Of a DNA stretch of 33,464 nucleotides, positions 10,504-33,464 are shown one piece after another; positions within the stretch are counted from its first letter, which is position 1, and each line of letters begins with the position of its first letter. Origin of the DNA: a virus. Location of the stretch: positions 1 to 33,464 of IMG/VR virus record IMGVR_UViG_3300043543_000508; one strand, written 5' to 3'. A program made the translations under genes and the position numbers. The notes beneath the pieces are model-generated. The model was not told where the DNA came from. It did no database searches and saw nothing but the letters and a program-made list of their open reading frames with translations.

Positions 10504-11403
10504 GGAACCTCCCTTGGTGGTAACGGTCGTCAAGTTGCGGGCGCGGGACTTCGCCCGCTGTCGGAGTTCGTCGAGGGCGGCGTCGAGGGTCCCCACCTGG
10601 TCGATCAGCCCCAGGGCCAGGGCCTCCGGGCCGAGGTGGACGCGGCCGTCGGCCAGGGGAGCGAGGGCGCTCCGTTCCCGGCCCCGGCCGCGGGCCACGG
10701 CGGCGAGGAAGGCCTCCGCCAGCCCGTCCACCTGCCGCTGAAATTCGGCCAGATGGGCGGCGGTGACCGGGGCCCCGTCGGTCCCGGCCCCCTTGAATTC
10801 CCCCGAACGGAGGACGTGGACCTGGATCTTGAGCTGCTCGTACAGCCCCGAGGTGTCTTCCACCACGGCGAACACGCCGAGGGAGCCGACCAGGCCGGTC
10901 GGATTGGACCAGACGCGCTCCGCCTGGCTGGCGATCCAGTAGGCGGCGGAGGCCCCCAGGTCCTCGATGAATGCGGAGACCGGCTTGCGCTGGCGGGCGC
11001 GATACAGTGCGTCGGCCAGGTCCCCCGTCCCGGCGACCGTCCCGCCGGGACTGTCGATCAGGACCAGCAGGCCGTCCACCCGCGGGTCGTCGAGGGCGGA
11101 CCGCAGCGCGCGGCGGGTCTCGACCAGCGAGGTCCCTCCCAGGCTGGAGCGGTGCTTGAGGAGCGTCCCTTCCAGCGGGAGCACCGCCACGCCGTCGACG
11201 ACCGCATAAGGGCCGCGGCGTTTGTCGGCGGCCGCCGCGTCGCCGGGCGTCTGCGCGTGGTCCCGCACGTGGACGTGCAGCTCGAGCCGCTGGATCTGCT
11301 CCCACAGGGAACGTCCGGCCGTGGTCTCGATGGCCCACACGCCGAACCAGTCGGTCAGCCGGTGGAAGTCGGGGCGCGCGGTGGTGGTGGACCAGGTGCT
11401 CAC
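10015..11403 (-). CDS. S49-family capsid maturation protease with scaffold tail (gpC-like)
   Basis: A 462-residue protein starting with GTG at 11403. GGAAGGAG lies upstream, and the GTG overlaps the portal stop (GTGA). It matches the SppA/lambda gpC fold: LLVLIDSPGGTVAG (residues 112-125) is the oxyanion segment, DLGASAAYWIAS (148-159) carries the likely nucleophile Ser152, LVGSLGV (171-177) is the second SppA motif, and GEFKGAGTDGAP (201-212) carries the likely base Lys204. Residues 301-462 equal the nested scaffold. Lambda gpC is 439 residues, so the length is normal. It should cleave the portal and scaffold during head maturation. Confidence 0.85.
   Translation of the reverse strand: MSTWSTTTARPDFHRLTDWFGVWAIETTAGRSLWEQIQRLELHVHVRDHAQTPGDAAAADKRRGPYAVVDGVAVLPLEGTLLKHRSSLGGTSLVETRRALRSALDDPRVDGLLVLIDSPGGTVAGTGDLADALYRARQRKPVSAFIEDLGASAAYWIASQAERVWSNPTGLVGSLGVFAVVEDTSGLYEQLKIQVHVLRSGEFKGAGTDGAPVTAAHLAEFQRQVDGLAEAFLAAVARGRGRERSALAPLADGRVHLGPEALALGLIDQVGTLDAALDELRQRAKSRARNLTTVTTKGGSMSDTPSANQSTSSTAATLAELRAACEGAPSDFLLAQLEAQATLPQAMQAWNAQLRADLAAARAQVQAAAQRAEQAEHRTRAAQPAGVTPITGQTAAVESEPTGSAIDRFDALVRERLAAAPRLERFAAIRAVAKEQPELYQAFLLETNPSRKAQRMIQEKLN
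10504..10518 (-). promoter_or_regulatory. Strong internal ribosome binding site for the nested scaffold
   Basis: The leftward-strand sequence CCAAGGGAGGTTCC directly precedes ATG at 10503. GGGAGG is a near-perfect anti-Shine-Dalgarno match with five-base spacing. Sitting within the protease coding sequence, it supports independent translation of the scaffold. Confidence 0.75.
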
Positions 11404-12977
11404 GCGGGCGCTCCTTCCTGGGTCTCGTCGGCGGCCAGGAGGTCCCGCGCGAGCGGGTCGGTCCCGGTCAGCCGCAGGAATTCCCGCCAGTGGAGCCGCT
11501 CGAACACCTGGGCGTCGGGATGCCCCTGATAGCGGTCGATCAGCCGCCGGCGGGCCAGGACGGCCTGCTCGATGGCGTAGCTGTGGTCCTCGACGATCTC
11601 GTCGACGCCGGTGAACCAGTCGGCCCCCTTTTCGGCCCAGACGCGGCGGGGGCTGGTGAGGAGTTTGTCCAGGCGGAGGGCGTCGGCGGCGGCGTCCTTG
11701 AGGGGCTCGATGTAGCCGTAGCTCTGCGCGTTCCAGCGGTGCCGGAAGATCGCCGGTCCGATCCGCGCGGCGGCGGATCGCACCTGATCCCCCCGTTCCG
11801 ATGGTTCCTGGAGGAGGACGGTGACGCGGAACTTCCAGGCCCGCACGTGAAGCTGCTGGATGTAGTCCTGCACCAGCCGCTTGAAGCTCACGCGGGCCTG
11901 GTCGATGGCCCCGCGCCAGCCGGAGAAGTTCGTATTGCTCGGGTCGAGGAGCAGCACGGCCACCGGGATCCCCAGGTTCACCGCCAGGATCGAGAGAATC
12001 AGCAGGGAGAACGCCATCGAATCGGACGTGGCGATGTTGGGCGTGAAGCCGTGCAGCTTTTCCCCCGGCTTGCCGACGACCTCCATCCCGGGGAAGACGT
12101 GTTCGAGGAGCCGCGTCGTCCCGGCCGAGAGTTCGCGGAGTTCGGTCTCGCCGAGCGTCCCCGGCGGGCCGGGGAGCACGTCCGGCTGCCGCTCCCGCAG
12201 AAAGGCGATGCAGCTCGCCACCTGCTGCTTCACCAGCGTCGCGAACAGCGTGTCGTCCAGATACGAACCAGCACGGGCCATGGGGGCGAAGCGGGTCACG
12301 CCCCGCCGCTGGCTGGTCCGCTTGGGGTCGACGATCTGCCAGACCAGCGGCCGGCCGGCGGGATCGACCCAGGGAAACGCCTGGATCTCCTGGACGCGTC
12401 GTAACGGGCGGGAGGGTTCCAGGTCCTGTTTCGTGACCCAGAGTTCCTCGGGCTGGTCCTGGCCGTTGAGTTTGATGCCGTGAATCACGCGACGGCGGGT
12501 GCCGGACGGCGTGCGGACCCGGTGGGCCTCGACCGACCAGAGGGCCCCCGTGTCGGTGGGGAGCAGGAAGTGGTCGCCGTCGACGAGGAAGGCGGCCCGG
12601 AACACCAGCCGTTCGAGCTGCCGCCAGGTGAGCCGGCCCTCGGAATGGCAGGCCCAGGGATCGCCGGCCCACTCATTCCAGGCCGCCAGCAGCAGGTCGT
12701 CGGTCTCGGCGTCACCCGTCTGCGGGTCGGGGCTGACCCCCGACTGGAGCACCTGGTCGACCACGCGGTCGACCCCCTGGCCGATCAGCAGGTCGTTGCG
12801 GTCCATGTCGCGGGCGATTTCGATCCCCCGCAGGTAGTCGGCCTCGCTGCGGTAATGCCAGTCGGCCCCTGCCCCCCCGGGGGCCAGCCCCGTCCGCGTC
12901 CGCAGCAGGGACGAGCCGCGCACGAATTCGTAATCGGCGCGGAGCTCGGCGAAGGCGCTGGCCAGGCTGGCGGTCAT
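11400..12977 (-). CDS. Portal protein (lambda gpB family)
   Basis: A 525-residue protein. ATG at 12977 forms an ATGA overlap with the upstream stop. The lambda-family portal signature is present: LLLDPSNTNFSGWRGAID followed by QARVSFKRLVQDYIQQL (residues ~335-370), the conserved 'D-P-S-x-x-N-[FY]-S-x-x-R-x-A' helix-wing motif. An N-terminal part with RGIEIARDMDRNDLLIGQGVD matches the usual 'R-x-L-x-R-N' region. Twelve copies would form the head vertex through which DNA passes. It lies between the gpW-position gene and the protease, exactly as lambda B. Lambda gpB is 533 residues. Confidence 0.88.
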   Translation of the reverse strand: MTASLASAFAELRADYEFVRGSSLLRTRTGLAPGGAGADWHYRSEADYLRGIEIARDMDRNDLLIGQGVDRVVDQVLQSGVSPDPQTGDAETDDLLLAAWNEWAGDPWACHSEGRLTWRQLERLVFRAAFLVDGDHFLLPTDTGALWSVEAHRVRTPSGTRRRVIHGIKLNGQDQPEELWVTKQDLEPSRPLRRVQEIQAFPWVDPAGRPLVWQIVDPKRTSQRRGVTRFAPMARAGSYLDDTLFATLVKQQVASCIAFLRERQPDVLPGPPGTLGETELRELSAGTTRLLEHVFPGMEVVGKPGEKLHGFTPNIATSDSMAFSLLILSILAVNLGIPVAVLLLDPSNTNFSGWRGAIDQARVSFKRLVQDYIQQLHVRAWKFRVTVLLQEPSERGDQVRSAAARIGPAIFRHRWNAQSYGYIEPLKDAAADALRLDKLLTSPRRVWAEKGADWFTGVDEIVEDHSYAIEQAVLARRRLIDRYQGHPDAQVFERLHWREFLRLTGTDPLARDLLAADETQEGAPA

Positions 12978-13270
12978 CGGGTGAAGCGCTCGAAGGACAG
13001 TTGACGGGGGATGGCGGGGGGCGCGGCGTCGGGACATTCCCCGCGGAGGGCCGACAGCCAGGCGGCGGCGGTCTCCAGTTGCCGCTGGACCTGGAGCGGG
13101 TCCCACTGCACCTCGGACTGCGCGCCGCGGGAGCGGACCGGATAGAGGAGCAGGTAGCGGCAGGCCTGAATGAAGGCCGCCGCCTTGCCGCCGGTCCCGT
13201 CCGACTCGTAGTCGGCGTTCTCGCGGTAGGCGGCCAGGACGTCGTCGCGCGTGCTGGCGGCAGTGAGCAT
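12974..13270 (-). CDS. gpW-position head-tail joining protein
   Basis: A 98-residue protein, ATG at 13270, overlapping the portal start by 4 bases. It is helical (AAAFIQACRYLLLYPVRSRG and LQVQRQLETAAAWLSALRGE). In lambda, the small gpW sits here, between the large terminase and the portal, and closes the head before the tail joins. Sequence similarity to gpW (68 residues) is not evident, so the role is a position-based inference. The downstream overlap implies coupling to portal translation. Confidence 0.5.
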   Translation of the reverse strand: MLTAASTRDDVLAAYRENADYESDGTGGKAAAFIQACRYLLLYPVRSRGAQSEVQWDPLQVQRQLETAAAWLSALRGECPDAAPPAIPRQLSFERFTR

Positions 13271-13624: not shown

Positions 13625-15559
13625 TCAACGACGCTCGGTCACGAGAAACGGACGTCCGTCCGGCAGGGTGACCGCTGGCTGTCGGGGCGGTGGCGCGCTC
13701 GCCGGCGCGGCCGGCGCGCGGCGGATCACGTCCCAGAGCTGTCCCTGCCGGGTGTAGAGCTGGGCGGCGACCCAGGCGTAGCGGGCCGAGTCCCGCCACT
13801 CGTTCTGCCCGCGCTTCTTCCAGGTGTGGAATTCGTAGCCGTGCTGCGACTTGAGGGTGTCCGGGTATTCGTTGGTGAGCTGCTCGAGGAGCTGACCGTC
13901 CTCGGCGGCCTGGCGGGGGAGTGTCCAGCCGCGCGGATCGTGGGGCGCGACGTCGCCGGTCAGCACCCGCTCGATCCACCACTGGCTCTGCTCGCCGTTG
14001 ACGAGGACCAGGGCGCGACCCGCCAGGCGGCGCTGGAGTGCCTGCTGCCGGGCCGTCCCGTCGTCCAGCCCCGTGAGCCGGTAGGCCCCCGGAAACGCGC
14101 TCGACTGCGGTCCCTTGCAGGGCAAACAGCCCGGGAATTGCCGGCAGAACTGGTACACCGCCTGCGTGTGCTCGCCGTCGCCGGAGTCGACCAGCGTGAT
14201 CTGGGGCTGGAGGCGGCCCCCCCCCTCGGCGTGGGGATACGCCGCCTCGACGATCTCGCGGCGGAGCGCATCGTCCGACGGGGCGACCCCCCAATCGACG
14301 AGGGCGCCCCGCCCTCCGCGGCCCCAGGCCCAGACCGACCACCAATAGGTGTGACCGTCGGCCTGCACGTCGACGCCGCGGGTGAGGAACACGCTCCAGG
14401 CGGGGCACGTCCCCCGCTCGTCGGCGGTGCACAGCCGCATCGCCAGTTCCACGTGTTCCACCTTGTGCGGGGCGTCGTCCCAGGTCAGCGACTCCCAACT
14501 GTTGTGATAGTTGCGGCGTTGCTCGCGGTCGCCGCGGCTGGTGAGGAACTTATACGCGATCGAACCCCAGGTGATCGACGGGAGCAGCGAATAGAGGGTG
14601 GGGAGCGGACCGAAGCTGGCGTGCGGGACGGAGCGGAGCGGTCGTCCGCGGAGCTTCCCCGACCCGACCACCGTCATCCCTTCGGGGACCCAGACCCCCG
14701 CGTTCAGCAGCTCAAATCGCTCGCCGTCGAGGATCCGCCGGCTGCAAAACCGGCACTCATACCAGGCGGTCTGCCGGGCCAGGTCGGGATCGCTCCGCCC
14801 GCTGGACGCCTTCTCCCAGCGCAGTCCGCCGGGTTGCAGGCCGTCGCCGGTCCAGAGCTGCTGCCAGCCGCCGCACTGGGGACAGGGGACGAACCGGCCG
14901 CGGTTGTCGCCTGTCAGCCGGGCCGCCTCGATCCGCGAGCGGCCCCGGTAGCTGGGGGTGGACAGCCGCAGCACCTTGGCCCGCGTGAAGCCCTTGGCCC
15001 GTTCGGTCATCAGCTCGGCGAAGTCGGCCTCGTCCGACCGCCGCCGGGTGTACTTGTCGAGTTCGTTGAGCACTACCACCGCGGCCGCGTAGTCGGCGGC
15101 CGAGTTGGGGGAGCCGGCCCAGGCGCCGTGAATGAGAAACTCGGGGAACTCGATCTTGTCGGCGGCCCGCAGGCGTGGCGGCGGACAATGATCGGCCAGG
15201 GCCGGGACGTGGGCCAGGATCTGCCACAGCCGCTTCAGGACGCGCTCGGTCGACTTCTGGTCGGCATCGGCCCAGGCCATCGGGTTCGGGTTCGTCGCCG
15301 CCACTTTGGCGCAGCAGGTCTGGGCGCAGACGGTCTTCCCGAGCCGGCTCCCCCACTGGAGCGTGATCTCGGTGTAGTACTGGTCGTCGAACACGGCGAA
15401 GACCTCGCGGGCGTGCGGGAACAGGTCCAGCCTCAGCCGTCCGCGGAGTTCGGAGCCGCGGGGAAGGGTGATGTTCCGCTCGGCCCACTCGGCCGTGGGC
15501 TGAAAGGGGCGCGGCCGCAGGATGTCGCAGACCGGCCCGGAGAAACCGTGGCGGATCAT
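13625..15559 (-). CDS. Large terminase subunit (GpA family)
   Basis: A 644-residue protein. ATG at 15559 overlaps the small terminase stop (ATGA). The ATPase domain shows Walker A GSRLGKT (residues 70-76) after EITLQW, and a Walker B-like VVVLNELDKY (161-170) in which Asn stands where Asp is usual. A zinc-like pair follows: CPQCGGW and CRFC. The nuclease domain shows TRGVDVQADGHTYWW (the GpA 'G-V-D-V-Q' motif), LVDSGDGEHTQAVYQF, and DSARYAW near the end. It powers DNA packaging and cuts the concatemer. Lambda gpA is 641 residues, so the length is exact. It works with the small subunit just upstream. Confidence 0.9.
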   Translation of the reverse strand: MIRHGFSGPVCDILRPRPFQPTAEWAERNITLPRGSELRGRLRLDLFPHAREVFAVFDDQYYTEITLQWGSRLGKTVCAQTCCAKVAATNPNPMAWADADQKSTERVLKRLWQILAHVPALADHCPPPRLRAADKIEFPEFLIHGAWAGSPNSAADYAAAVVVLNELDKYTRRRSDEADFAELMTERAKGFTRAKVLRLSTPSYRGRSRIEAARLTGDNRGRFVPCPQCGGWQQLWTGDGLQPGGLRWEKASSGRSDPDLARQTAWYECRFCSRRILDGERFELLNAGVWVPEGMTVVGSGKLRGRPLRSVPHASFGPLPTLYSLLPSITWGSIAYKFLTSRGDREQRRNYHNSWESLTWDDAPHKVEHVELAMRLCTADERGTCPAWSVFLTRGVDVQADGHTYWWSVWAWGRGGRGALVDWGVAPSDDALRREIVEAAYPHAEGGGRLQPQITLVDSGDGEHTQAVYQFCRQFPGCLPCKGPQSSAFPGAYRLTGLDDGTARQQALQRRLAGRALVLVNGEQSQWWIERVLTGDVAPHDPRGWTLPRQAAEDGQLLEQLTNEYPDTLKSQHGYEFHTWKKRGQNEWRDSARYAWVAAQLYTRQGQLWDVIRRAPAAPASAPPPRQPAVTLPDGRPFLVTERR

Positions 15560-16038
15560 GGAGCGCCTCCGAGCGCCTTCAGGTCCTCGGCCAGTTGCGT
15601 CCGCCGGCGGTCGAGTTCCTCCTGGAGCCGCGCGCGGACCTTGGCGGCGGTCCGCTGGTTCGGACAGATGGCCGCGATCAGGTCGGGGAGCTGGTCGCAC
15701 CAGTCGCCGAGGGCCGAGAGGAGCACGGCGACCGACTGCTCGACCGCCTTGCGGGGAAGGAGCGTCCCTTCCTTGACTTCGAGGTCGAGCTGTTCCCGCC
15801 GAGTGCGGAGCTGCATCTGTCGCAGCTTCTCCGCGGTGATCGCCAGTTTGAGTTTGCGGGCCGCGTCGGCGGCCTCGGAACCCTTCCGCTCGTGCGCCTG
15901 TCGCCAGCGCTGGATGGCGTCGAGGTCGTAGCCGTTCGTGCAGTCGGGGAACCCCTCGATCTGCCGCCAGTCCCGCAGCGTGCGCGGCGTGACCCCCAGG
16001 CGGAGGGCGGCTTCGGTCTGACGGGCGACAACGGGCAT
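15556..16038 (-). CDS. Small terminase subunit (Nu1-like)
   Basis: A 160-residue protein, ATG at 16038. The N-terminal winged helix-turn-helix is clear: RQTEAALRLGVTPRTLRDW followed by CTNGYDLDAIQRWRQ, like lambda Nu1. A basic linker (ARKLKLAITAEKLRQMQLRT) and a helical C-terminal half for oligomerisation or large-subunit contact follow. It recognises the packaging (cos-like) site, whose location was not found. It starts the leftward structural operon and overlaps the large subunit by 4 bases. Confidence 0.85.
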   Translation of the reverse strand: MPVVARQTEAALRLGVTPRTLRDWRQIEGFPDCTNGYDLDAIQRWRQAHERKGSEAADAARKLKLAITAEKLRQMQLRTRREQLDLEVKEGTLLPRKAVEQSVAVLLSALGDWCDQLPDLIAAICPNQRTAAKVRARLQEELDRRRTQLAEDLKALGGAP

Positions 16039-16233
16039 TCATCGGGCAGGGGTGTTAGACGTCGGCGGCGAGAAAAAAAACGGAAAATCGCGGACCGAAG
16101 TGCAGTTTCGACTTAGCCGTCGGCGCGCATTTTTTTCCTGAAAAAAAGGCATTTTTCACCAGACAGCCGCGCGGAGCTTTCGTACAAGCAAACGTGAAAT
16201 TCAAGAGTTTCGAGAAATTGAAAGGGCGAGACA
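16039..16233. promoter_or_regulatory. AT-rich divergent intergenic region between late operon and rightward island
   Basis: This 195-base stretch separates the leftward small terminase from a rightward gene. It is far more AT-rich than the rest, with runs of 7-8 A or T and a near-palindrome TTTTTTCCTGAAAAAA around 16133-16147. It must hold the start signals of both directions and could also hold a packaging site. I cannot define -35/-10 boxes with confidence. Confidence 0.45.
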
Positions 16234-16706: not shown

Positions 16707-17099
16707 ATGCAAGCACTGACACTTCACCGGGAATGGGCCTGGCTGGTCGCGGCCGGGCACAAGCGCGTGGAGAATCGCCGCTGGTCGACCAAATACCGCG
16801 GACCGCTGGCGATTCACGCGGGACTGAAGTCTGATTCATCGGCACGAGTCCTCTGCGACCGGCTCGGGATCGCGCTGCCGGCGGAACTCCCGGGCGGCGC
16901 GCTCGTCGCCGTGGCGGAACTGGTGGACGTCGTCCCCTGGGGGACCCTCTGCGCGTTGGACTTGCGCCGCGATCCGTTCGCCGCCGGCCACTTCTGCTTC
17001 GTGCTGGAGCGGGTCCGCAGACTTCGCGAACCGGTTACGTATCGCGGTCGATGCGGGCTATTTTCGGTCCCGGATGATCTGGTCGACGACGTCTCCTGA
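16707..17099 (+). CDS. ASCH-domain protein
   Basis: A 130-residue protein, ATG at 16707. The N-terminus MQALTLHREWAWLVAAGHKR then VENRRWSTKYRGPLAIHAG (residues 1-39) is the ASCH-domain core: 'L-T-[LI]-x-x-x-W-A-x-x-I-x-x-G-x-K-x-x-E-x-R-x-W-x-T-x-Y-R-G-x-[LI]-x-I-H-A'. A second conserved part, GGALVAVAELVDV, is also present. ASCH proteins bind RNA or modified nucleosides; some are amidohydrolases of modified cytidine. The phage role is unknown. The gene is convergent with, and overlaps by 286 bases, the reading frame of the ABC-GNAT gene. Confidence 0.8.
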   Translation: MQALTLHREWAWLVAAGHKRVENRRWSTKYRGPLAIHAGLKSDSSARVLCDRLGIALPAELPGGALVAVAELVDVVPWGTLCALDLRRDPFAAGHFCFVLERVRRLREPVTYRGRCGLFSVPDDLVDDVS

Positions 17100-18202
17100 A
17101 CTGGGAGTCCGAACCGGCGGGCTTCGTCGACGCGCGCCGGCCCGACGTAGGTGAAACCGGCGGTGATCCGATCCACGGCGGCGTACTGGAACATCTCGCG
17201 AATATACCGCTTCGCGCTCCGGCCGACCGGGGAGGTCATTCCCGGGAGGCGATGCATCCGCCACAGGGGCGACCGGCGGCGGTGGGCGATCATCGCGGGG
17301 TTCCCGGTCGTACTGCAATACTTCTTACCAGTAGCCGCGAATAGACTCGCGACAAACTCGGCTAGCGCGTTCCCGATCCCGACGCCCTGGAAATCGGGCA
17401 GGCAGACCGTCCGGTGTCCACGCCAGTAGGTTTTTTGATTATTAACGGAATGAATCACCGACGTGAAAGCCACGGGCTGTCCACGGTAGAGGGCCGCGAA
17501 GCAGTAGGCGTTCTTGTTCAGGGTACCGGTCAAATAGTGATACCGACGGAAAAGCTGCCACGCCGAGTGATGGACGCGGACGATCGTGAGCGCGATCGGC
17601 GGTCGCCGCCTTTCCAACCTCCAATGGAACACATCCGTTTCCGGCTCGTAGGTCCAGTCGGGGTCCAACCAGTCGATGATGTCGTAGTGGCAGCTGACGG
17701 CCACGAACTGCCGATCGAGTCGGCGGATCGCCCTGGAAATCGCCGCGCTCCCGATCTGGGCGACCGTGCGGTCGACGACCGAGGTGAATTCGTCGATCAC
17801 GACCAGCGGGCGCGGCTCGGCGAGGGCCCGCGCCAGCGTCACGCGGAACTGCTCACCATTGGACAGGCAGCGGAACGGACGCAGCCAACTCGGCGGGGAA
17901 CTGAAGCCGACCGACGACAACACCCCGGTAATCTCCTTGATCGACATGTCCCGCGGGAAGGCGTCGACGATCGATTGGTGCTGCGGCCACTCGAAACCGG
18001 AAATCAGCGCGTCGCCGAAGAAGTGCCGGGCGACGGTGGATTTCCCGGAGCCGGAGCGCCCGACGATCAGGCCGATCCGCCAGGGGCGTTCTTCCAGCGG
18101 GAGGTGGACGTCCCGGACGAACTCGCTGCGCTGCGTCGGCGGAACGTCGAATAGTCCTTCGAGCTGCTGGACCCGCGGCGAACGCACCACGGGCACGGAC
18201 AT
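16814..18202 (-). CDS. ABC-type ATPase fused to GNAT (Mom-like) acyltransferase
   Basis: A 462-residue reading from ATG 18202, which shares one base with the ParB stop (TGATG). Residues 41-175 form an ABC ATPase: Walker A GRSGSGKST (48-56), signature LSNGE (113-117), Walker B LVVIDE (133-138) and H-loop His172. No transmembrane segments follow, so it is soluble. Residues ~205-325 form a GNAT acyltransferase with RRYHYLTGTLNKNAYCFAA, GQPVAFTSVIH and the cofactor loop QGVGIGNAL (272-280). The His-Tyr/Asn/GNAT pattern recalls phage Mom-type DNA acyltransferases. After residue ~369 the frame runs antisense to the ASCH gene and looks unnatural (Ser/Arg-rich). The true end may be near 17100-17060; see the findings. 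Confidence 0.75.
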   Translation of the reverse strand: MSVPVVRSPRVQQLEGLFDVPPTQRSEFVRDVHLPLEERPWRIGLIVGRSGSGKSTVARHFFGDALISGFEWPQHQSIVDAFPRDMSIKEITGVLSSVGFSSPPSWLRPFRCLSNGEQFRVTLARALAEPRPLVVIDEFTSVVDRTVAQIGSAAISRAIRRLDRQFVAVSCHYDIIDWLDPDWTYEPETDVFHWRLERRRPPIALTIVRVHHSAWQLFRRYHYLTGTLNKNAYCFAALYRGQPVAFTSVIHSVNNQKTYWRGHRTVCLPDFQGVGIGNALAEFVASLFAATGKKYCSTTGNPAMIAHRRRSPLWRMHRLPGMTSPVGRSAKRYIREMFQYAAVDRITAGFTYVGPARVDEARRFGLPVQETSSTRSSGTENSPHRPRYVTGSRSLRTRSSTKQKWPAANGSRRKSNAQRVPQGTTSTSSATATSAPPGSSAGSAIPSRSQRTRADESDFSPA

Positions 18203-18888
18203 CACGAGACGAGCGCTCGGCACGTTAGCCCCTCGGCTTCGAACCGTTCGAGCAGCTCCGTCTGGTGCTGCTCGTCGGTGCAGGTGATGACGATCTGCCA
18301 CTTCTCGATCACGGAACCTTCCGGATCAGTGTCGGAGCTCTTCCGCGCGGGTTTGCGGGCGGACTGACCGGCATCATCGTCGGCGGCCCCGACGCCGGAA
18401 GCAATGTCTGCGGCGTCGCGCGCGAGCTGGTCGAGTTCGGCGAGGAAATCGTCCCGCAGCCGAACCAGTTCGTCGTCGCCCGAGTAATCAACTTCGTCGA
18501 GGAGCGCTCGCAACTGTTCCACGTCCCATTCGGCGAGCTCCGCCGTGCGATTGTCAGCGATCGCGAAGCCGAGCGCGGTGTTGTCGTCGTGATCGACGAA
18601 CACCACGGGAAAGTGGGTGTAACGGCAGATTTCCGCGGCGGCTTGGACCGCCCCGTTCCCTGCCAGGATCCGACGGTCGGATCGGCGAACGACCGCCGGC
18701 TTACAGATCCCGTAATTCCGGAGACTCGCGGCGATCGCCGACAGGTCCCGCTCCGCGTGCTTCTTGGCGTTGCGCGGGTCGAAGACGAGCGACGCAATGG
18801 GCACGGCGAGCGGCCGGAGGGCGTCGGCGATGTAGGTCAGGTCTGGCTCTGCGCTGCTTCGTTTTGTCGAGTTTTTTCGTTTCGGCAT
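18202..18888 (-). CDS. ParB-like nuclease/CTPase-domain protein
   Basis: A 228-residue protein. ATG at 18888 is chosen because GGAG sits 8 bases before it. Residues ~28-115 match the ParB N-terminal fold: DPRNAKKHAERDLSAIAASL, RNYGICKPAVVRRSDRRILA then the 'G-N-G-A-x-x-A' loop, followed by VDHDDNTALGFAIADNRTAE and LAEWD. In phages this type is often tied to methyltransferases or other base-modifying enzymes. The C-terminal 35 residues (KWQIVITCTDEQHQTELLER...) form a small domain seen in this protein group. It is coupled by a 1-base overlap to the ABC-GNAT gene, so the two are expected to work together. Confidence 0.8.
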   Translation of the reverse strand: MPKRKNSTKRSSAEPDLTYIADALRPLAVPIASLVFDPRNAKKHAERDLSAIAASLRNYGICKPAVVRRSDRRILAGNGAVQAAAEICRYTHFPVVFVDHDDNTALGFAIADNRTAELAEWDVEQLRALLDEVDYSGDDELVRLRDDFLAELDQLARDAADIASGVGAADDDAGQSARKPARKSSDTDPEGSVIEKWQIVITCTDEQHQTELLERFEAEGLTCRALVS

Positions 18889-19011
18889 CGTCAGTCTCCG
18901 GAAGGAAGGAAGGAAGTACGTTTCACGGCGCCTTAGCAACAAAAAAACTTCGATAGGCGGAGCCGCGAACGTACGGGGGGCTCGGGGAAGGACCCCGGCG
19001 ACCTCGACACG

Positions 19012-21862: not shown

Positions 21863-22486
21863 TTATCCGGCGGGGGCCGCCAGTTCGACCCGCGCCGGCT
21901 CGATCACGAATTGCGTCCCAGAGACCACGTCCAACCCCAGGGCCTGCAGCGCCTGCTGGCGTTCCCGCCCGCCGCGCCAGGCGTCCTTGATCCGCGGCTT
22001 GTTGAGCTCGGTTTTGACACGCACGACGTCGCCGGCGGTCAACGGACCCCAACTGGCCGCCAGCACCCGATCGACGAGGGCCGCCAGGTGGAACTTCCGC
22101 TCGACCGCGGCCAGGACCGAGGCCGCGTCGCAGCGCCGGCGGAAGCCGACCGCGGGGGGCGTCTCGCTGACGCCGATCCGCCCATGCGCCAGCTCGAGCG
22201 ACTTGCGGCCGGCGGGGAGCTGCCGCGGGAGTTGCCGCTCGGCCCAGTGCGCGAGGGCGCGCTCGAGCTGCTCGGCCCGCTCGGCGAGGGAGACGGTCTC
22301 CCCCTCGATCTCGCACGACATCCGCTCCGCCAGCCGCTGTTTGAGGGCGGCGATCTCAGCCTCGGCCTCGGCGTTCAGTGTCTCCCGGCGGGCGCGAATC
22401 CAGCCCAGCTCGTGGAGCGCGGCGTCGACTTCGGCCAGCGACTTCAGCCGCGGATCACGTCCGAGGGCCGCGGGGCGCGCGAGCAT
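21863..22486 (-). CDS. gam: Mu Gam-like host-nuclease inhibitor
   Basis: A 207-residue protein. The start is taken at ATG 22486 (AGGGATGCC upstream); a TTG at 22525 in the same frame lies inside a stem-loop and is less likely. Residues ~15-110 match the Mu Gam fold: LAEVDAALHELGWIRARRET, then a long coiled coil (LNAEAEAEIAALKQRLAERM). The 'E-x-L-E-R-A-L-x-x-W' helix is followed by ELAHGRIGVSETPPAVGFRR. Mu Gam is a Ku-like protein that coats DNA ends and protects them from RecBCD. A Gam of the Mu family in an otherwise lambda-like phage is unusual and suggests module exchange. Confidence 0.75.
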   Translation of the reverse strand: MLARPAALGRDPRLKSLAEVDAALHELGWIRARRETLNAEAEAEIAALKQRLAERMSCEIEGETVSLAERAEQLERALAHWAERQLPRQLPAGRKSLELAHGRIGVSETPPAVGFRRRCDAASVLAAVERKFHLAALVDRVLAASWGPLTAGDVVRVKTELNKPRIKDAWRGGRERQQALQALGLDVVSGTQFVIEPARVELAAPAG

Positions 22487-22524
22487 GGCATCCCTGCTCT
22501 TGCGGGGGCCGCGAGTAAAGACCA

Positions 22525-22558
22525 AAATCGCGGGGGAGCCTCCCTGCGCCCGCGATTT
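22525..22558. terminator. Stem-loop upstream of gam-like gene
   Basis: AAATCGCGGG (22525-22534) pairs perfectly with CCCGCGATTT (22549-22558) across a 14-base loop, with more pairing possible at the base. On the leftward strand it is followed by TTTTGG, as in a weak intrinsic terminator or attenuator. It may separate the gam-holin operon from the control region, or regulate it. Confidence 0.4.
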
Positions 22559-24437: not shown

Positions 24438-25031
24438 TCACCGCCGCCGACCCGGCTGCCGCGGCTCCCGCAGGCACCGCGGCAACTCCTCCGGCGGCCA
24501 GGCCGCGGCCGAAATCGCCGCCAGCAGCGCTGGCCGCCCGCCGGCGGCGTCGATCGCGCAGGCCCGGGCGATCGCCCGCAGATCGTCGTCCCCGCAGACC
24601 TCGAGCAGCTCCCGCGAGGGGCGGAACTGCCGAGCCGCGTCGATCCCCAGCAGGTCGGCCAGGACCCGCAGCACAGACAGCGGAAACGGGCCGCGACTCC
24701 ACGCCTCCCGAACGATCCCTAGACAGCGCTGCTCCCACTCCGCCTCGCTCAGGGGGAGCAGCAGGGCCGGATCCAGGTCCTCGGGGAGCCCGGCCAGCCG
24801 TCGGCCGTAGCGGCTGAAGCAGAACATCGCGCAGCGGGCCACGACCGTCCGCTGCCGGCGAGTCAGCTTCCCCGCCACGGCCGGGGCCAGGGCCTGCTGA
24901 TAGGCCCGCTCCCAGTCCCGTTCGAGGCGGTAGCGGAAGTAGGGCTCGTTCCGCGGCTGACCGGACGGCCCGGCAGACGCCGCCCGCTCGGCCGCCTGCC
25001 GGGCCACCGCGGCCGAACCCCACACCCTCAC
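24438..25031 (-). CDS. Candidate helicase-loader-like protein downstream of initiator
   Basis: A 197-residue protein. GTG at 25031 overlaps the initiator stop as GTGA. It is helical and Trp/Arg-rich (FRYRLERDWERAYQQALAPA, KLTRRQRTVVARCAMFCFSR, RCLGIVREAWSRGPFPLSVL). No P-loop is visible. Lambda P and similar loaders directly follow the O-type initiator and are about 230 residues, without ATPase motifs in P. The position and overlap fit that role, but similarity to lambda P is not evident. It is the last gene of the leftward early operon. Confidence 0.5.
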   Translation of the reverse strand: MRVWGSAAVARQAAERAASAGPSGQPRNEPYFRYRLERDWERAYQQALAPAVAGKLTRRQRTVVARCAMFCFSRYGRRLAGLPEDLDPALLLPLSEAEWEQRCLGIVREAWSRGPFPLSVLRVLADLLGIDAARQFRPSRELLEVCGDDDLRAIARACAIDAAGGRPALLAAISAAAWPPEELPRCLREPRQPGRRR

Positions 25032-26122
25032 GATTCCCCGCCGGCGGGCCCCGCGCGGGCCGCGAAGGCCTCGACGAGGGCGTCCCGCACCAGCGGCACG
25101 TCCCGCCAGCGCGGGCCGCACCGCAGCACCTCCCGGACGAGCCAGGTCCCCTTGTCGCGCACGAGGTCCGCCCGCTCCGGCGGGGTGAGCTGGTCGATCT
25201 CCGCCCCGCACGCCGCGAGCTGCCGCTCCCGCGCCTGCCGCCGCTCCGCCAGCCGCTGCCGCTCGGCGGCGTCCGCGACCGCCGCCGCGGACCGGGCCGC
25301 GACCGCCGTCGCGGCCTCCTGCCGCCCCCGCCAGGCCGGATGGTCCGGCCGCGGCCACTGGTCCGCCGCGAGATGCACCGCCGACGGCGTGGTCAGCCGC
25401 CAGTAGAGCCACCCCTCGGGGTTCTGGTACCGCTCCCGGCGGACCGCGTACTCGGCCAGGAGCTCCCGGATCGCCGCGGGGGCCAGGCCGTTCCGCAGGG
25501 CCTGCTGGACGGCCTCCGCGGCCGCATGCACCCCCGCCGCCGCCACCGCCGCCACCAGGTCCGCCTCGCTGGACGCTGGTTCAGCAGCGGCAGACGGCGG
25601 CGCTGATGGTGGCGCTGACGGGGCGCTAAGAGGGGCGCTAAGAGGGCGCTCTTCCTTATATGCAGTCCACGTGGTGGACTGACAGTCCACGTGGTGGACT
25701 GACAATCCACCTGGTGGACTGACAGTCCACGTGGTGGACTGACAATCCACGTGGTGGACTGACGGTCCACCTGGTGGACTGGGTCCAGCGGTCCGTTCGG
25801 CCTGCTGCTGGCCCTCCGGGGTGCGTTCCCAGAGGGCGCCCCAGCAGATCCAGAAGGTCCGCCGGCCGTCGGGGAGCTCGTCGCAGCCGATCAGCCCCTC
25901 GTCGTGGAGCCACTTGAGCCACTTGTACGCCGCGGACCGGCTGATTTCCGCCTCCTCGGCGAGCTCGTCGATCCGCAGCGACCACGAGCGGTTCCGGCCG
26001 ATGTGGTCGTCGAGCCGCTCCAGGAGCAGCTTGGCCAGCGGCCTGCCACCGAGCCGGCAATCGCGCAGGATCGCGAGCTGCTGGGCGCGGGTGAAGTCGA
26101 GTTCGAGCTGTTGTTCTGCCAC
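25028..26122 (-). CDS. Lambda O-like replication initiator containing the origin iterons
   Basis: A 364-residue protein, ATG at 26122. Residues ~30-95 form a winged helix-turn-helix (SLRIDELAEEAEISRSAAYK, WLKWLHDEGLIGCDELPDGR). Residues 115-153 are encoded by six tandem 20-bp palindromic repeats, giving a two-copy protein repeat PPGG-x-SVHHVDCQSTTWT. An Ala/Pro/Ser linker (residues ~160-180) and a long helical C-terminal half with an Arg-rich tail follow. Lambda O has the same plan: DNA-binding N-domain, iterons in the middle of the gene, helicase-contact C-domain. It should bind the iterons and start theta replication. The next gene overlaps by 4 bases. Confidence 0.8.
   Translation of the reverse strand: MAEQQLELDFTRAQQLAILRDCRLGGRPLAKLLLERLDDHIGRNRSWSLRIDELAEEAEISRSAAYKWLKWLHDEGLIGCDELPDGRRTFWICWGALWERTPEGQQQAERTAGPSPPGGPSVHHVDCQSTTWTVSPPGGLSVHHVDCQSTTWTAYKEERPLSAPLSAPSAPPSAPPSAAAEPASSEADLVAAVAAAGVHAAAEAVQQALRNGLAPAAIRELLAEYAVRRERYQNPEGWLYWRLTTPSAVHLAADQWPRPDHPAWRGRQEAATAVAARSAAAVADAAERQRLAERRQARERQLAACGAEIDQLTPPERADLVRDKGTWLVREVLRCGPRWRDVPLVRDALVEAFAARAGPAGGES
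25619..25652. repeat. 12-bp direct repeats beside iterons
   Basis: Two copies of a GGGGCGCTAAGA unit plus a third partial copy lie next to the iteron array and encode the Ser-Ala-Pro linker of the initiator. A short TTATAT patch lies between these repeats and the iterons, the only AT-rich spot at the origin. Confidence 0.5.
25661..25780. repeat. Six tandem 20-bp palindromic iterons, probable replication origin
   Basis: Six units repeat at exactly 20-base spacing. Each has the core AGTCCAC-GTG-GTGGACT or a near copy, at 25664, 25684, 25704, 25724, 25744 and 25764. Arms are perfect or one mismatch; units 3 and 6 carry CTG centres. The unit is not a multiple of three, so the coding frame passes through it in all three phases without a stop. 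The array lies inside the initiator gene, as the lambda origin does in gene O. It is not a CRISPR array: there are no spacers. Confidence 0.85.
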
Positions 26123-26149: not shown

Positions 26150-26353
26150 TCAGGCTGTGCAGAGCGGCTGTTCCGTCATTGGCGTATCGGTCGCGGGAGT
26201 GGCGTGTCCGATGAGCTCCGTCCGCACGATATTCAGGTCTGGCGGGGCGTCGATCCCGATCCGCACCGCCTCGGGTCCGATCCGCAAAATCGTGATCTCG
26301 ATCTGGTCGCCGATTTGGACCTTTTCTCCAGCCTTCCGCGTGAGGACGAGCAT
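26150..26353 (-). CDS. csrA: CsrA, carbon-storage RNA-binding regulator
   Basis: A 67-residue protein, ATG at 26353. It matches the family from end to end: MLVLTRKAGEKVQIGDQIEI, then TILRIGPEAVRIGIDAPPDL and NIVRTELIG. The RNA-contact residues, Leu4/Arg6 in LTR and the arginine in NIVRTEL, are present. CsrA binds GGA motifs in mRNA leaders and shifts translation and stability. In a phage it could alter host or phage gene expression after infection. Its own leader carries two close GGA motifs at the ribosome site. It lies 28 bases before the initiator gene. Confidence 0.9.
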   Translation of the reverse strand: MLVLTRKAGEKVQIGDQIEITILRIGPEAVRIGIDAPPDLNIVRTELIGHATPATDTPMTEQPLCTA

Positions 26354-27700: not shown

Positions 27701-28359
27701 GGTTCGACCTCCGCACCGGGGGAAGCGCACCAGGCGATGTTGGCTCGGTCCCAGTACGGCGCGCGCCACGCCAACTGCGCCACCTCCGATGCCCGCAGCA
27801 ACAAGGTCATGGGGATCGGCCGCTGCGCCACTCCGCCTTTGAAGAGGGACCAGTCCTCCTCCTGCTCCTCGACGTCGCAGCGCAACACCTCGCCCCATCC
27901 GACCCGATGGTCATTGCCGATCGCTGGGAGGGCGGACAAGACGTCGCGGCAGAGTTCCGTGTCCCCGCGCCCATAGAAGGTCACGGTCCGCGCGGGGCGA
28001 TACGTCCAATACATCATCCGATTGCGGAAGTGGCCGGCGGCCGTGTTCACGCGATCTCCGGGAAACTGCTCCGCCTCGAACCGCTGGAAGTACGCCAGCG
28101 TCGAGCAAGGGAGCGGCGGATGAAAAAACGAAATGCTGCCGCAGGGGACGCCGCGCCACTCCGCCAGCGGTGGACGCCCGATCCGCGTGACGATTTCCCG
28201 AACGTCCACCACCTGCTTCGTCGGGAGCGTGTAATACGCGCGTCCCAGCACGCGCAACATCGACGCGTGCAGCACCAGGGAATCCAGGTGCAGCCAGGGA
28301 TGGTTGAGTGTGAGGGGAAACGCGAGGTGAAATACCACGCGAAAGGGACGGTCCGTCAT
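27697..28359 (-). CDS. csf3: Csf3-like (Cas5-type RAMP) of type IV CRISPR effector
   Basis: A 220-residue protein. ATG at 28359 overlaps the csf2 stop as ATGA. It opens with a RAMP strand (FRVVFHLAFPLTLNHPWLHL) and 'D-S-L-V-L-H-A', as in Csf3. The segment GRPPLAEWRGVPCGSISFFH has the middle Cas5-like loop. A Gly-rich stretch near the end (NDHRVGWGEVLRCDVE) is typical of the RAMP fold. Csf3 binds the crRNA 5' handle in type IV complexes. It sits between csf2 and the transglycosylase-like gene in a chain of 4-base overlaps. Similarity is to family pattern, not to one named protein. Confidence 0.75.
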   Translation of the reverse strand: MTDRPFRVVFHLAFPLTLNHPWLHLDSLVLHASMLRVLGRAYYTLPTKQVVDVREIVTRIGRPPLAEWRGVPCGSISFFHPPLPCSTLAYFQRFEAEQFPGDRVNTAAGHFRNRMMYWTYRPARTVTFYGRGDTELCRDVLSALPAIGNDHRVGWGEVLRCDVEEQEEDWSLFKGGVAQRPIPMTLLLRASEVAQLAWRAPYWDRANIAWCASPGAEVEP

Positions 28360-29246
28360 GAGGCACCCTCCGCTCGCCGGTTCCGTTTCGTCGGGCCGTC
28401 GCAGCGCCGGGACAACTCGTCCAGCGCCTCCCCGATCGCGGCCCGCTCCGCTCCGACGTAAGCCCTGTACAGTTCGGGTGTGTGCTGCGTGGCGTAGGCC
28501 AGCCGCACGCGGCCATAACCGCTCGCGCTCTTCGCGCCGATGTACGGCTGCTCCTTCCAGAGTTCGGTCACGTGCGCCAGGCACGAGGCCTCCAGATCGT
28601 CGGCCTGTTCCAGGGCGAACCGATGCGCCAGCCGCGACCCGGCGATGAGACACTCGAACTCGATCTTCATCTGGGTGGCCTGTTCCCCCTCCTCGCGTTC
28701 TTCCCGCAGATCGTCGCGCCGCGTGGCGAAGCTGATGTCGGTGAACTCCCGGCACGATTTGAGCGCCCGTTTGTCGTCGCGCAGCGAGGGCGGCAACGCA
28801 AAGGCGTTCTCGCGGCAGACCAACCGTCCATGCCCCACGCGCAGGCAACTGGGGAGCATCTGATTCCCGACCGAGGCCCCGAACAGGGCCAGCGGCGGGA
28901 CGCTGTCGCGCAGCCTGCGGCGAAACGCCAGGTCTTCCCCCTCCTCGCCGCCGGTCGACTTCTCTAAGGCGCCGCCGGAGAAGAGCGCATGGTGCAGTTT
29001 CTTGGACTGCACGTCATAGCCGATCGCCGCCAGGAGGTCGCGAAAGGCCAGGCGGCGCAGCACGCCGCGGATCGCGTTGCCGCTCAGGAACGGTACGCGG
29101 ACCGTCTCCCCCGTCTCCTCGTCGTATTGATCGATGGCCCGCAAGACCGGCGTGGAGCCGGTCTTTTCATCGCCGCCGTGGTGCAGCGGCTCCAGCAGAT
29201 CAATCACGCCGTCAATCGTCAGTACTCGATGCACTGCTCCGCGCAT
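28356..29246 (-). CDS. csf2: Csf2 (Cas7-type backbone RAMP) of type IV CRISPR effector
   Basis: A 296-residue protein. ATG at 29246 has GCGGAG upstream. The Csf2 pattern is strong: IDGVIDLLEPLHHGGDEKTG at the start (residues 11-30), VPFLSGNAIRGVLRRLAF (51-68), KLHHALFSGGALEK (83-96), VPPLALFGASVGNQML (116-131) and a late Gly-rich loop GAKSASGYGRVRL (237-249). Csf2 forms the helical backbone that coats the guide RNA. It overlaps the preceding small gene by 35 bases and csf3 by 4. This is the best supported member of the cluster. Confidence 0.88.
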   Translation of the reverse strand: MRGAVHRVLTIDGVIDLLEPLHHGGDEKTGSTPVLRAIDQYDEETGETVRVPFLSGNAIRGVLRRLAFRDLLAAIGYDVQSKKLHHALFSGGALEKSTGGEEGEDLAFRRRLRDSVPPLALFGASVGNQMLPSCLRVGHGRLVCRENAFALPPSLRDDKRALKSCREFTDISFATRRDDLREEREEGEQATQMKIEFECLIAGSRLAHRFALEQADDLEASCLAHVTELWKEQPYIGAKSASGYGRVRLAYATQHTPELYRAYVGAERAAIGEALDELSRRCDGPTKRNRRAEGAS

Positions 29247-29577
29247 GGACGCTCCGCTTTCTTTGTTTGGCCGACTGGACCGCCAACATGGCGACCGTGA
29301 TGTGCTCCTGGTGCACGTGGCGCAAGAGCGCTCGTTCGTAAGGGACGAGCGCCTCATAGAGCGCAACGGCCTCGGGAGACAGCGACTGCAACCCAAACCA
29401 GTTACACAACCGCGACACGAACCCCCCCAGCGTCGGCCTGGTCGCCGCCGCCCGCACCCGATGGTTAAACACGTCCCACGGATTGCGGCTGGTCGACATC
29501 TTTCTCCAGGGGACGGACGCGTAAATCAGCCCCAGGAGTTCAATGAACTGTGCTTCCACCTCTTTAGGGACAGGCAT
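29212..29577 (-). CDS. Cas11-position small subunit of type IV-like effector
   Basis: A 121-residue helical protein. ATG at 29577 overlaps the Csf1-like stop by 14 bases. Segments VEAQFIELLGLIYASVPWRK, RAAATRPTLGGFVSRLCNWF, and EALVPYERALLRHVHQEHIT fit an all-helical small subunit. In type IV-B loci, a Cas11 gene lies between csf1 and csf2, exactly this position. The family is inferred from position, length and helicity. It would form the inner belly of the RNP filament. Confidence 0.6.
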   Translation of the reverse strand: MPVPKEVEAQFIELLGLIYASVPWRKMSTSRNPWDVFNHRVRAAATRPTLGGFVSRLCNWFGLQSLSPEAVALYEALVPYERALLRHVHQEHITVAMLAVQSAKQRKRSVHARSSASSTDD

Positions 29578-30235
29578 GGGCCAACACCTTCCAGGCAGGG
29601 TCGTGCGCGCACGCCATCGCCGTGCGCAGTGCGGGGAGCCAGCCGCCGTGGATCGCGACCTCCACCTGCTTCGGCGTGAACCGCCCGTCGGCCAACGCCG
29701 ACCTCGGCAGACGGTAGCCCCGCAAGAACTCGATCAGCGGCGCGTAGCGCGCGACGGTGTGCGGCGTGATCGGCACCGGCGCATCGGTCCAGTCCGTGCC
29801 GACCCAGGCCAGCCTGGCGCTCCCGACCTTGTGCATCAGCGTCAGCCAGCCCTGCTTTTTTCGGCCCAGCGTCTGATACACGCAAAACGGCGCGGCCGGC
29901 GGATGCACGAGGGCGTTCCACACGGTCCGGTCCGCGGCGCTCTCACGCCGCAACTCCCCATTCCAGGCCGCCCACGAGGTGCGGCGCAGCTCGTCGCGCT
30001 TCAAGAGGGCCCAGCAGAATTCGCAGAAACAATCCCCATGCGCCAGGAGCGGCCACGCGCTGAATTTGGACGAGGGGGACTCCGCGTGCCCGGCGGAGGT
30101 GCTCCGCGCGCACAGCCGGCATCGTCCGGCATGGCGACCAAGCACGGCGTCCGGACGCAGGACGTCGTACAGCGTCAACAGTTGGTCCCCGACCGGTCGG
30201 CTCGGCGACGGAATCTCGGGGAGGGAGAGGGCCAT
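29564..30235 (-). CDS. csf1: Csf1-like zinc-finger subunit of type IV CRISPR effector
   Basis: A 223-residue protein. ATG at 30235 shares one base with the integrase stop (TGATG). A cysteine cluster, C39-x2-C42 (GRCRLCARS) and C69-x-C71-x2-C74 (DCFCEFCWAL), forms a zinc-binding region as in Csf1. The second part follows the Csf1 pattern: HPPAAPFCVYQTLGRKKQGW (111-130), then LMHKVGSARLAW. Csf1 is the type IV signature large subunit. The gene runs into the Cas11-position gene with a 14-base overlap. The link to the integrase gene is discussed in the findings. Confidence 0.75.
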   Translation of the reverse strand: MALSLPEIPSPSRPVGDQLLTLYDVLRPDAVLGRHAGRCRLCARSTSAGHAESPSSKFSAWPLLAHGDCFCEFCWALLKRDELRRTSWAAWNGELRRESAADRTVWNALVHPPAAPFCVYQTLGRKKQGWLTLMHKVGSARLAWVGTDWTDAPVPITPHTVARYAPLIEFLRGYRLPRSALADGRFTPKQVEVAIHGGWLPALRTAMACAHDPAWKVLAHACP

Positions 30236-31302
30236 CACGGCGCTCCTTTCGTCAGCGTGAGCAGCAGCCTGGCCCCGCGGCGGAACTCGACCGGATTGCG
30301 CAGGCGATACACGGCGCGGAGCACCCGCCGGGTCGGGTCCTGGTAGTGCTCGGCATTCACGCCGCGCACGCTGTGCCCGGTGAGCCAGGCCCCCACGCCC
30401 GGCAGCACGTCGTCGTGCCAGGTCGAGCAGGTCTTGCGCAGGGCCTCGAAGGGCGCGCGGACCCCGGCCCGGGCGCAGATCCGCCGCCAGGCCGCATAGA
30501 AGGCCTGGTGCTTCCGAAAGCCGGGAAAGACCCATTCGGGATCGAGACCCAAATGGTGGACGTACTCCAGGTGCGCTCTCGCCACGCGGTTCAGCGGCGG
30601 ACGCTGGACTTTCCCCGTCTTGCGGGCGCGGTAGAACACCGCGCCATACCGAAAATCGTCCCAGCGGACGTCCTCCCACCGCAGCGCGAACAGGTCCCAC
30701 GTCCGCGGCCCCGTGTTCAGGGCCAGCACCAGCGCCGTCCGCCAGAGGATCGGCAGATGCAGTCCGCTGCGGCGATGGCCACCCGTCGGCCGGCAGGCCT
30801 CGGCGGCCAGATAGAGCGCGGAGAGCTCCCGCCGCGAGAAGACGAACGGCAGCCGCTTCTGCCGCGGCAGCGGCTGCGGAAAGCCGAAGTAGGGGACCAG
30901 CCCTTTCCCCTCGGGATTGTGCCGGTCGGCCGGCCAGAGGGGCGAGATCATCGCCGCCAGCGTCCGCAGGATTTTGTTGATGGTCGCCGGCGAGCGACGG
31001 AAGCGTTTCCGCCCCCGGCGGCAGGTCTCCTCGGCCAGCCGCTGCCGGAACCGCTTCACCGATTCCCGGTCGATCCAGGCCACCGGGCCGTTCTCGGTGA
31101 GTCGCTCCCAGTGGGCCAGCGTCGACCAGTATTCGGCAAGCGTCGCCGGGCGGCGCTCGTCGAGATGCGGCAGGACGTGCACCTCGAACGCCTCCCGCAG
31201 CGTGGAGTGGGGCCCCACCCGCTCGGCCGGGTCGCCGAAGAGTTTCAGGCGGGGTGATGTCGCCGGGGCCGGCGACGACGGAAACAAGACGAGTGACGAC
31301 AT
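30235..31302 (-). CDS. int: Tyrosine integrase (site-specific recombinase)
   Basis: A 355-residue protein, ATG at 31302 (GGGGAGACCCCGC upstream). Residues ~35-145 form the SAM-like core-binding domain. The catalytic domain shows Arg200 in NTGPRTWDLFALRW, Lys228/231 in RARKTGK, Arg289 in FEALRKT (with Glu286 at the usual His position), His310 in LTGHS, and nucleophile Tyr320 in NAEHY. It integrates and excises the phage. It is the first gene of the leftward early operon and overlaps csf1 by one base. The att site could not be defined. Confidence 0.88.
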   Translation of the reverse strand: MSSLVLFPSSPAPATSPRLKLFGDPAERVGPHSTLREAFEVHVLPHLDERRPATLAEYWSTLAHWERLTENGPVAWIDRESVKRFRQRLAEETCRRGRKRFRRSPATINKILRTLAAMISPLWPADRHNPEGKGLVPYFGFPQPLPRQKRLPFVFSRRELSALYLAAEACRPTGGHRRSGLHLPILWRTALVLALNTGPRTWDLFALRWEDVRWDDFRYGAVFYRARKTGKVQRPPLNRVARAHLEYVHHLGLDPEWVFPGFRKHQAFYAAWRRICARAGVRAPFEALRKTCSTWHDDVLPGVGAWLTGHSVRGVNAEHYQDPTRRVLRAVYRLRNPVEFRRGARLLLTLTKGAP

Positions 31303-32950: not shown

Positions 32951-33004
<54 letters not shown>

Positions 33005-33029
33005 GTCTGCCTGGCGGCGCGGGGGCCGC

Positions 33030-33464
33030 TCAGCCTTCCCGCGGCGGCTCTTGGCCGCCATCGAGCGCGTCAACGTAGTTCACGAGATCCTGCGTGTCCT
33101 GGTGGACGTAGCGCTGGATCGTCTGTAGGCCGGCATGACCCAGGACCGCTGCCGCCGCGGCGATCCCCTTCGCGCGACACAGCCGCGTTGCCAGGTGGTG
33201 GCGTGTGCTGTACAGCACGACGCGTCGGTCGACCAGGCACTTCCGGCGCAGCTCGCGAAAGGTTTGCGACAGGCGGGAGACCGTCCATCGCCGGCCGCGG
33301 GGCGTGACGAACAGCGGGCCGGCGCGGCGGCCCGCCACGTGCGCGTCGATCACCTCCAGGCACGCCTGCGACACGGGAATCAACCGCGGACGCCGTGTCT
33401 TCCCCGCCGTCTTGTGCCTGCGGCACACGATCACGCGGCGGGTCCGATCCAGATCGGAAATTTG
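33030..33464 (-). CDS. Second tyrosine recombinase, N-terminal part outside window
   Basis: The frame is open to the right edge; only the C-terminal ~145 residues are seen. The catalytic domain is clear: a beta-hairpin with the lysine (CRRHKTAGKTRRPRLIPVS), box II YSTRHHLATRL (His/Arg), GHAGLQTIQRY with the 'G-H-x ... Y' nucleophile region, and a short C-terminal tail. It belongs to a different element from the phage integrase at 30235-31302. The gene ends 25 bases from the tRNA-Asp fragment, consistent with an integrase next to its attachment site. Confidence 0.8.
   Translation of the reverse strand, partial: QISDLDRTRRVIVCRRHKTAGKTRRPRLIPVSQACLEVIDAHVAGRRAGPLFVTPRGRRWTVSRLSQTFRELRRKCLVDRRVVLYSTRHHLATRLCRAKGIAAAAAVLGHAGLQTIQRYVHQDTQDLVNYVDALDGGQEPPREG

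Follow-up and report, generated by a model that had tools for sequence, protein, structure and literature searches.

The window analysed here is the entire IMG/VR record IMGVR_UViG_3300043543_000508, 33,464 bp in length. It holds a caudovirus gene set, and nearly all of its genes are carried by the minus strand, as judged from GC3. The main genes are the following:

8516-9520: major head protein gene
11400-13106: lambda-type portal gene
13625-16042: GpA-type terminase gene
18202-18942: gene for a ParB-like protein (phrog_620, 3.5e-26)
21863-22525: gene for a Mu Gam-like protein
24438-25031, minus strand: gene after the initiator gene, 197 aa, with its coding signal in frame -1
25028-26122, minus strand: putative replication initiator gene, 364 aa, GTG start, containing the iteron array and open through it
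30235-31302: phage integrase gene

The presence of the integrase gene suggests a temperate phage. A second integrase fragment (33030-33434; phrog_216, 2.6e-16), additional to the phage's own integrase, adjoins a tRNA-Asp (32951-33021), and the two are possibly an attachment-site border or part of a neighbouring element; when an attachment site was sought as a direct repeat with the tRNA-Asp region, no repeat was found in the window. The early region encodes a protein resembling the RAMP superfamily (28356-29396, minus strand; weak match to PF03787, phrog_22746 at 1e-31), a copy of which, with 46% identity, occurs in another viral contig, L006. CRISPR systems are the main known source of RAMP proteins. 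The ParB-like protein has further matches to methyltransferase- and nuclease-associated ParB-domain families. A 495-aa protein (16814-18301, minus strand) joins an ABC-type ATPase stretch to a GNAT acetyltransferase stretch and strongly matches phrog_11143 (1.9e-101), whose function is unknown.

Immediately upstream of the initiator gene lies a gene for a CsrA-family regulator (26150-26353, minus strand; PF02599, 4e-21). On the other side, the start of the 24438-25031 gene overlaps the initiator stop codon (GTGA), the position that P occupies in lambda. Its product gave no match in Pfam or PHROG, and the structural model was all-helical at low confidence (pLDDT 49). We regard this product as a candidate helicase loader; among the window proteins scanned, none could be recognised as a helicase or as a loader of one.

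A palindrome array within one reading frame

The putative initiator gene contains a set of tandem palindromes:

25663-25781: iteron array, six 19-bp palindromes at a 20-bp pitch
25663-25681: iteron 1, CAGTCCACGTGGTGGACTG, arms 8/8
25683-25701: iteron 2, CAGTCCACGTGGTGGACTG, arms 8/8
25703-25721: iteron 3, CAATCCACCTGGTGGACTG, arms 7/8
25723-25741: iteron 4, CAGTCCACGTGGTGGACTG, arms 8/8
25743-25761: iteron 5, CAATCCACGTGGTGGACTG, arms 7/8
25763-25781: iteron 6, CGGTCCACCTGGTGGACTG, arms 7/8

Every unit consists of a 19-bp inverted repeat, with 8-bp arms and a 3-bp centre, and one linker base after it; the common form is CAGTCCAC-GTG-GTGGACTG. Units 1, 2 and 4 are identical, while units 3, 5 and 6 carry two, one and two substitutions, respectively. 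Three units have fully complementary arms (8/8), the other three have one mismatch (7/8), and the plus-strand arm GTGGACTG is unchanged in all six. Tandem repeat analysis (TRF) returned a period of 20, with 5.9 copies, 91% matches and 0% indels. The first-pass annotation had described six exact 20-bp palindromic iterons at 25661-25780: the number of units and the strict 20-bp spacing hold, but the palindromes measure 19 bp, only three of the six are identical, and the true span differs by 1-2 bases.

No further iteron copies or clusters of half-sites were found in the whole 33,464-bp record, so that the array is a single discrete site. A search of IMG/VR with the unit as a DNA pattern gave no match. 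With up to three mismatches allowed, the core pattern matched 13 times, against 0.69 expected from shuffles. In a palindrome-array scan of 1.18 Mb of viral DNA the window array scored 142 and the runner-up 53, compared with a shuffled maximum of 20.5 (the best among three codon-shuffled controls). Among 5000 synonymous recodings, palindromic sites reached at most 7 (10 observed) and the 20-bp periodicity at most 74% (91% observed). A chance origin of the array is excluded.

The array lies within the gene, as the first-pass annotation had it, and occupies codons 115-154 of 364 in a single open reading frame. The coding signal, expressed as GC3-GC2, was +0.33 to +0.38 in either flank of the array, with one frame shared by the two, and dropped to near zero inside it. 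Because the coding frame is the same on both flanks while the codon signal is gone within, the constraint acts at the level of DNA, as the synonymous-recoding test also indicates. The arithmetic of the repeat leads to the same point. As had also been noted beforehand, the 20-bp unit is read in all three frames, three units together encoding a 20-residue repeat; three does not divide 20, and one and the same sequence therefore yields three different peptides, which argues for selection on the DNA. For the same reason the reading frame is kept only by changes of three units at a time, unless compensated elsewhere.

The regularity of the array bears on the least credible of the explanations that we considered, namely that it is an accidental tandem expansion in a disordered linker, devoid of any function as DNA: the low-confidence, probably disordered linker and the frame-preserving length of 120 bp would suit such an event, but the palindromic arms are held in six of six units at constant phase with all three frames open, and unrelated palindromes occupy the corresponding place in other phages (see below), so that we give it almost no credence.

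The putative initiator protein and the weak duplex beside the array

The array lies between two parts of the protein, a predicted winged helix before it and a helical C-terminal part after it, in keeping with the order of domains that the first-pass annotation had proposed:

25829-26089, minus strand: predicted winged-helix DNA-binding domain, residues 12-98 (AlphaFold2 single-sequence model)
25055-25567, minus strand: helical C-terminal region, residues 186-356 (from secondary-structure prediction alone, pLDDT 36-87)

The AlphaFold2 single-sequence model of the full protein was of low confidence (mean pLDDT 53). Its winged-helix portion shows the order H-H-E-H-H-E-E, with a core pLDDT of up to about 80, and helix-turn-helix profiles match residues 49-78 with scores under the curated cut-offs. 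The stretch encoded by the array is probably a disordered linker, judging from the model, and the C-terminal region is a candidate for the part that contacts a loader or helicase.

In profile searches the protein matches phrog_270, "replication initiation protein", over residues 27-310 (E 9.9e-8), and in a genome-level search the match was confined to the winged-helix residues. We downgraded this match as proof of initiator function and give it little weight, because the same profile also finds matches in most control genomes (10-12 of 14). In a leave-out profile test the protein ranked first among non-seed ORFs, at an E-value of only 0.005. It falls below the HTH_36 cut-off, and tblastn against the phage collection gave no match; direct homologues were likewise found in none of the phages, plasmids, IMG/VR records and genome contigs searched. 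The gene had been called O-like in the first pass. This is apt for its architecture only, given that Pfam PF04492 (Phage_rep_O) does not match the protein at E 0.1, as against 5.7e-36 for lambda O.

Foldseek searches of the PDB gave weak winged-helix matches, including MarR and the N-terminal domain of DnaD; as a clue to identity these were set aside, being generic winged-helix regulators and none of them specific. Matches in BFVD were also weak, and although several carried the names replication protein or replication protein O, they were not relied on.

Next to the array, on its C-terminal side, the duplex is weak:

25638-25664: candidate DNA unwinding element, in the gene sense CATATAAGGAAGAG... 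(nearest-neighbour stability)
25620-25650: short tandem repeat, in the gene sense GCGCCCTCTTA-GCGCCCCTCTTA-GCGCCCC (direct reading of the sequence)

By nearest-neighbour calculation the least stable windows of the gene are 25638-25661 (24 bp) and 25649-25664 (16 bp), and its least stable 30-bp stretch starts within the final five bases of the array. The weak element itself, CATATAAGGAAGAG in the gene sense, is short; GC-rich DNA comes after it, where GCGCCCCTCTTA is repeated two and a half times. The tandem repeat is possibly part of the unwinding element, or else merely coding for Pro, Ser and Ala; similar tandem 11-14-mers follow the arrays of other phages. The GC skew of the window, which had been proposed as a check on the origin, gave no clear signal.

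Comparison with other phage initiator genes

Since no close relative was detected and the phrog_270 match is generic, the architecture was tested comparatively. Related phages were gathered through their terminases, and their DNA was scanned for arrays without regard to genes. In the 1.18 Mb of viral loci, convincing arrays lay mostly within initiator genes, directly past the N-terminal domain. Besides lambda and the window, such arrays were found at L106, L031, L035 and L104/L023, where loci L104 to L109 had been chosen by phrog_270 hits and L023, L031 and L035 had not. The L031 protein matches another initiator family, phrog_9474 (1e-16).

Named relatives of the L104 and L035 initiators were also examined. 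In the Pseudomonas phages JBD68 and vB_Pae_U2, Lactococcus phage 63301, Acinetobacter phage Ab105-2phi and Parageobacillus phage JGon-2020a, the best-scoring array of each locus lay inside the initiator gene; the scores were 27-71, whereas shuffled sequence reached at most 19. The palindromes are unrelated. The initiator gene of vB_Pae_U2 is directly upstream of annotated DnaC-like and DnaB-like genes, and that of Ab105-2phi is directly upstream of an annotated replicative helicase. With the same detector, no convincing in-gene array was seen in the similar winged-helix genes of Rhodobacter, Labrenzia, Rhizobium and Salinibacter phages; the layout is therefore common, not universal.

The weak duplex also tends to keep its side. 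Among the 11 genes with enough sequence (window and lambda included, JBD68 and vB_Pae_U2 being near-identical), nine had their least stable 30-bp stretch at or just past the C-terminal end of the array, the exceptions being L031 and Ab105-2phi.

The closest terminase relative of the window phage (G004, 41% identity) has a candidate initiator gene, L098:13760-14509, picked by a weak profile score, in which 12-bp-based direct repeats are followed by three tandem AT-rich 11-mers. The order of parts is as in the window, whereas the type of repeat is different. The end of this gene is overlapped by a gene for a 188-aa protein, possibly a helicase loader.

In lambda, two O proteins bind each iteron, an 18-bp inverted repeat, and the adjoining AT-rich region is prone to unwinding (PMC6022878). 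Lambda gene O has four of these 18-bp iterons, at codons 117-145 of 299, a relative position similar to that of the six 19-bp units in the window gene. In both genes an N-terminal DNA-binding domain is followed by the array and then by a C-terminal part, the weak duplex is on the C-terminal side of the array, and the next gene overlaps the stop codon (P over O; 24438-25031 over the initiator). The two differ in pitch (20-24 in lambda, exactly 20 bp in the window) and in the unwinding element, which in the window is short, set in a gene of 74% GC, and weaker than lambda's 39-bp AT-rich tract. Moreover, the window protein stands outside the Pfam family of lambda O, and its neighbour gene has no match in Pfam or PHROG.

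The Stx phages P27 and 933W have six iterons in gene O, adjoining an AT-rich region, and footprints revealed efficient binding at only four of the six (PMC7466680). Their O proteins are lambdoid, unlike the window protein; the iteron count is the same, and six iterons are thus not special (PMC7466680). In SPP1, gp38 binds origin repeats, and the oriL repeats and an AT-rich unwinding element are inside gene 38 (PMC6316719). However, oriL is described with direct repeats instead of palindromes, and a further SPP1 origin, oriR, lies at another place, whereas the window has no second copy of its array. The initiators of the phrog_270 or HTH_36 type (JBD68, vB_Pae_U2, 63301 and Ab105-2phi) again combine a winged helix, three or four palindromes and a C-terminal part. 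Their pitch varies from 18 to 40 bp, and the window array is more regular, has more units and differs in sequence; the unwinding element is on the same side as in the window in three of the four. As for the architecture class of lambda O and SPP1 gp38, with its at least three in-gene iterons, the window gene has six in one ORF, a predicted N-terminal DNA-binding domain before them and easily melted DNA beside them.

A predicted origin and its alternatives

The array and the adjoining low-stability DNA are, in all likelihood, the replication origin of a probably temperate phage, located within the gene of its own initiator. The origin is very probably of the lambda type, with iterons and unwinding element inside the gene, its activity and the binding of the protein being what the layout would predict. 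The lambda-like reading that the first-pass annotation had offered thus gains support from the continuous coding sequence of the gene, the relative position of the array, the side of the weak duplex and the arrays in independent initiators.

By analogy with lambda, dimers of the N-terminal winged-helix domain would bind each palindrome, and six bound dimers would assemble into an O-some-like nucleoprotein complex that strains the DNA, whereupon the duplex would open next to the array, over 25638-25664 on its C-terminal side. Recruitment of the host replicative helicase may then fall to the C-terminal part of the protein, alone or together with the 24438-25031 product. The array sits in a probably disordered linker, where additional DNA would be least harmful.

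Could the palindromes instead be operators, through which a winged-helix regulator binds inside its own gene and controls the operon, with no role in replication? The domain is generic, its nearest solved folds are MarR/ArsR-type regulators, and any dimeric winged-helix protein would suit palindromic sites. Yet the array is about 340 bp into the gene and not at a promoter, an operator of six contiguous units would be unusual, and neither in front of the gene nor anywhere else is there a copy or a cluster of half-sites. Two features fit an origin instead: the weak duplex is on the side that it has in lambda, and arrays recur in initiator genes beside helicase genes. We consider a purely regulatory function improbable; autoregulation might still be a second role of the array beside that of origin.

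Even less probable is a centromere-like partition site for the ParB-like protein. Clustered inverted repeats are common in partition sites and the window does encode such a protein, as its phrog_620 match (3.5e-26) indicates, but no ParA-type partner was recognised among the scanned proteins, and the ParB-like protein also resembles the ParB-domain families associated with methyltransferases and nucleases. The array, moreover, is 7 kb from the ParB-like gene and within a winged-helix gene, and the integrase gene at 30235-31302 suggests an integrated prophage.

Returning to the origin reading, in-gene origins are already known from lambda, the Stx phages and SPP1, and the window is a further case, unusually regular and in a GC-rich phage that lacks close relatives. 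For a phage with no cultured relative, it predicts precisely and cheaply where the origin and the binding site lie. The more interesting point is the recurrence across initiator families. Tentatively, and with some doubt on our part, the placing of palindromes and an unwinding element in the winged-helix linker might have arisen, or been reshuffled, on separate occasions in several initiator families that are not homologous, with origin and initiator forming one gene-sized cassette in which only the palindromes are retuned; the window would be the GC-rich, short-element case, with a helicase recruiter of no recognised family. The general rule suggested is that, for many phages, a palindrome array just past the N-terminal domain of the initiator could mark the origin, and that the duplex would open at the C-terminal end of this array. 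If true, the rule would be an aid in annotating initiators labelled "helix-turn-helix" or "hypothetical", and would allow the specificities of initiators and sites to be paired across families.

Unrelated arrays of their own are present in the initiator genes L031:257-1126, L035:3755-4177, L105:5115-6122, L106:3661-4701 and L113:2980-3756, for which the palindrome types listed are ATGCTGTCAGCAT, GTGACANNNNTGTCAC, TGTCCGGANNTCGGACA, GTGAACCNGGTTCAC and GTACCGAAATTGGTAC. Each of these arrays is likewise a predicted origin and binding site.
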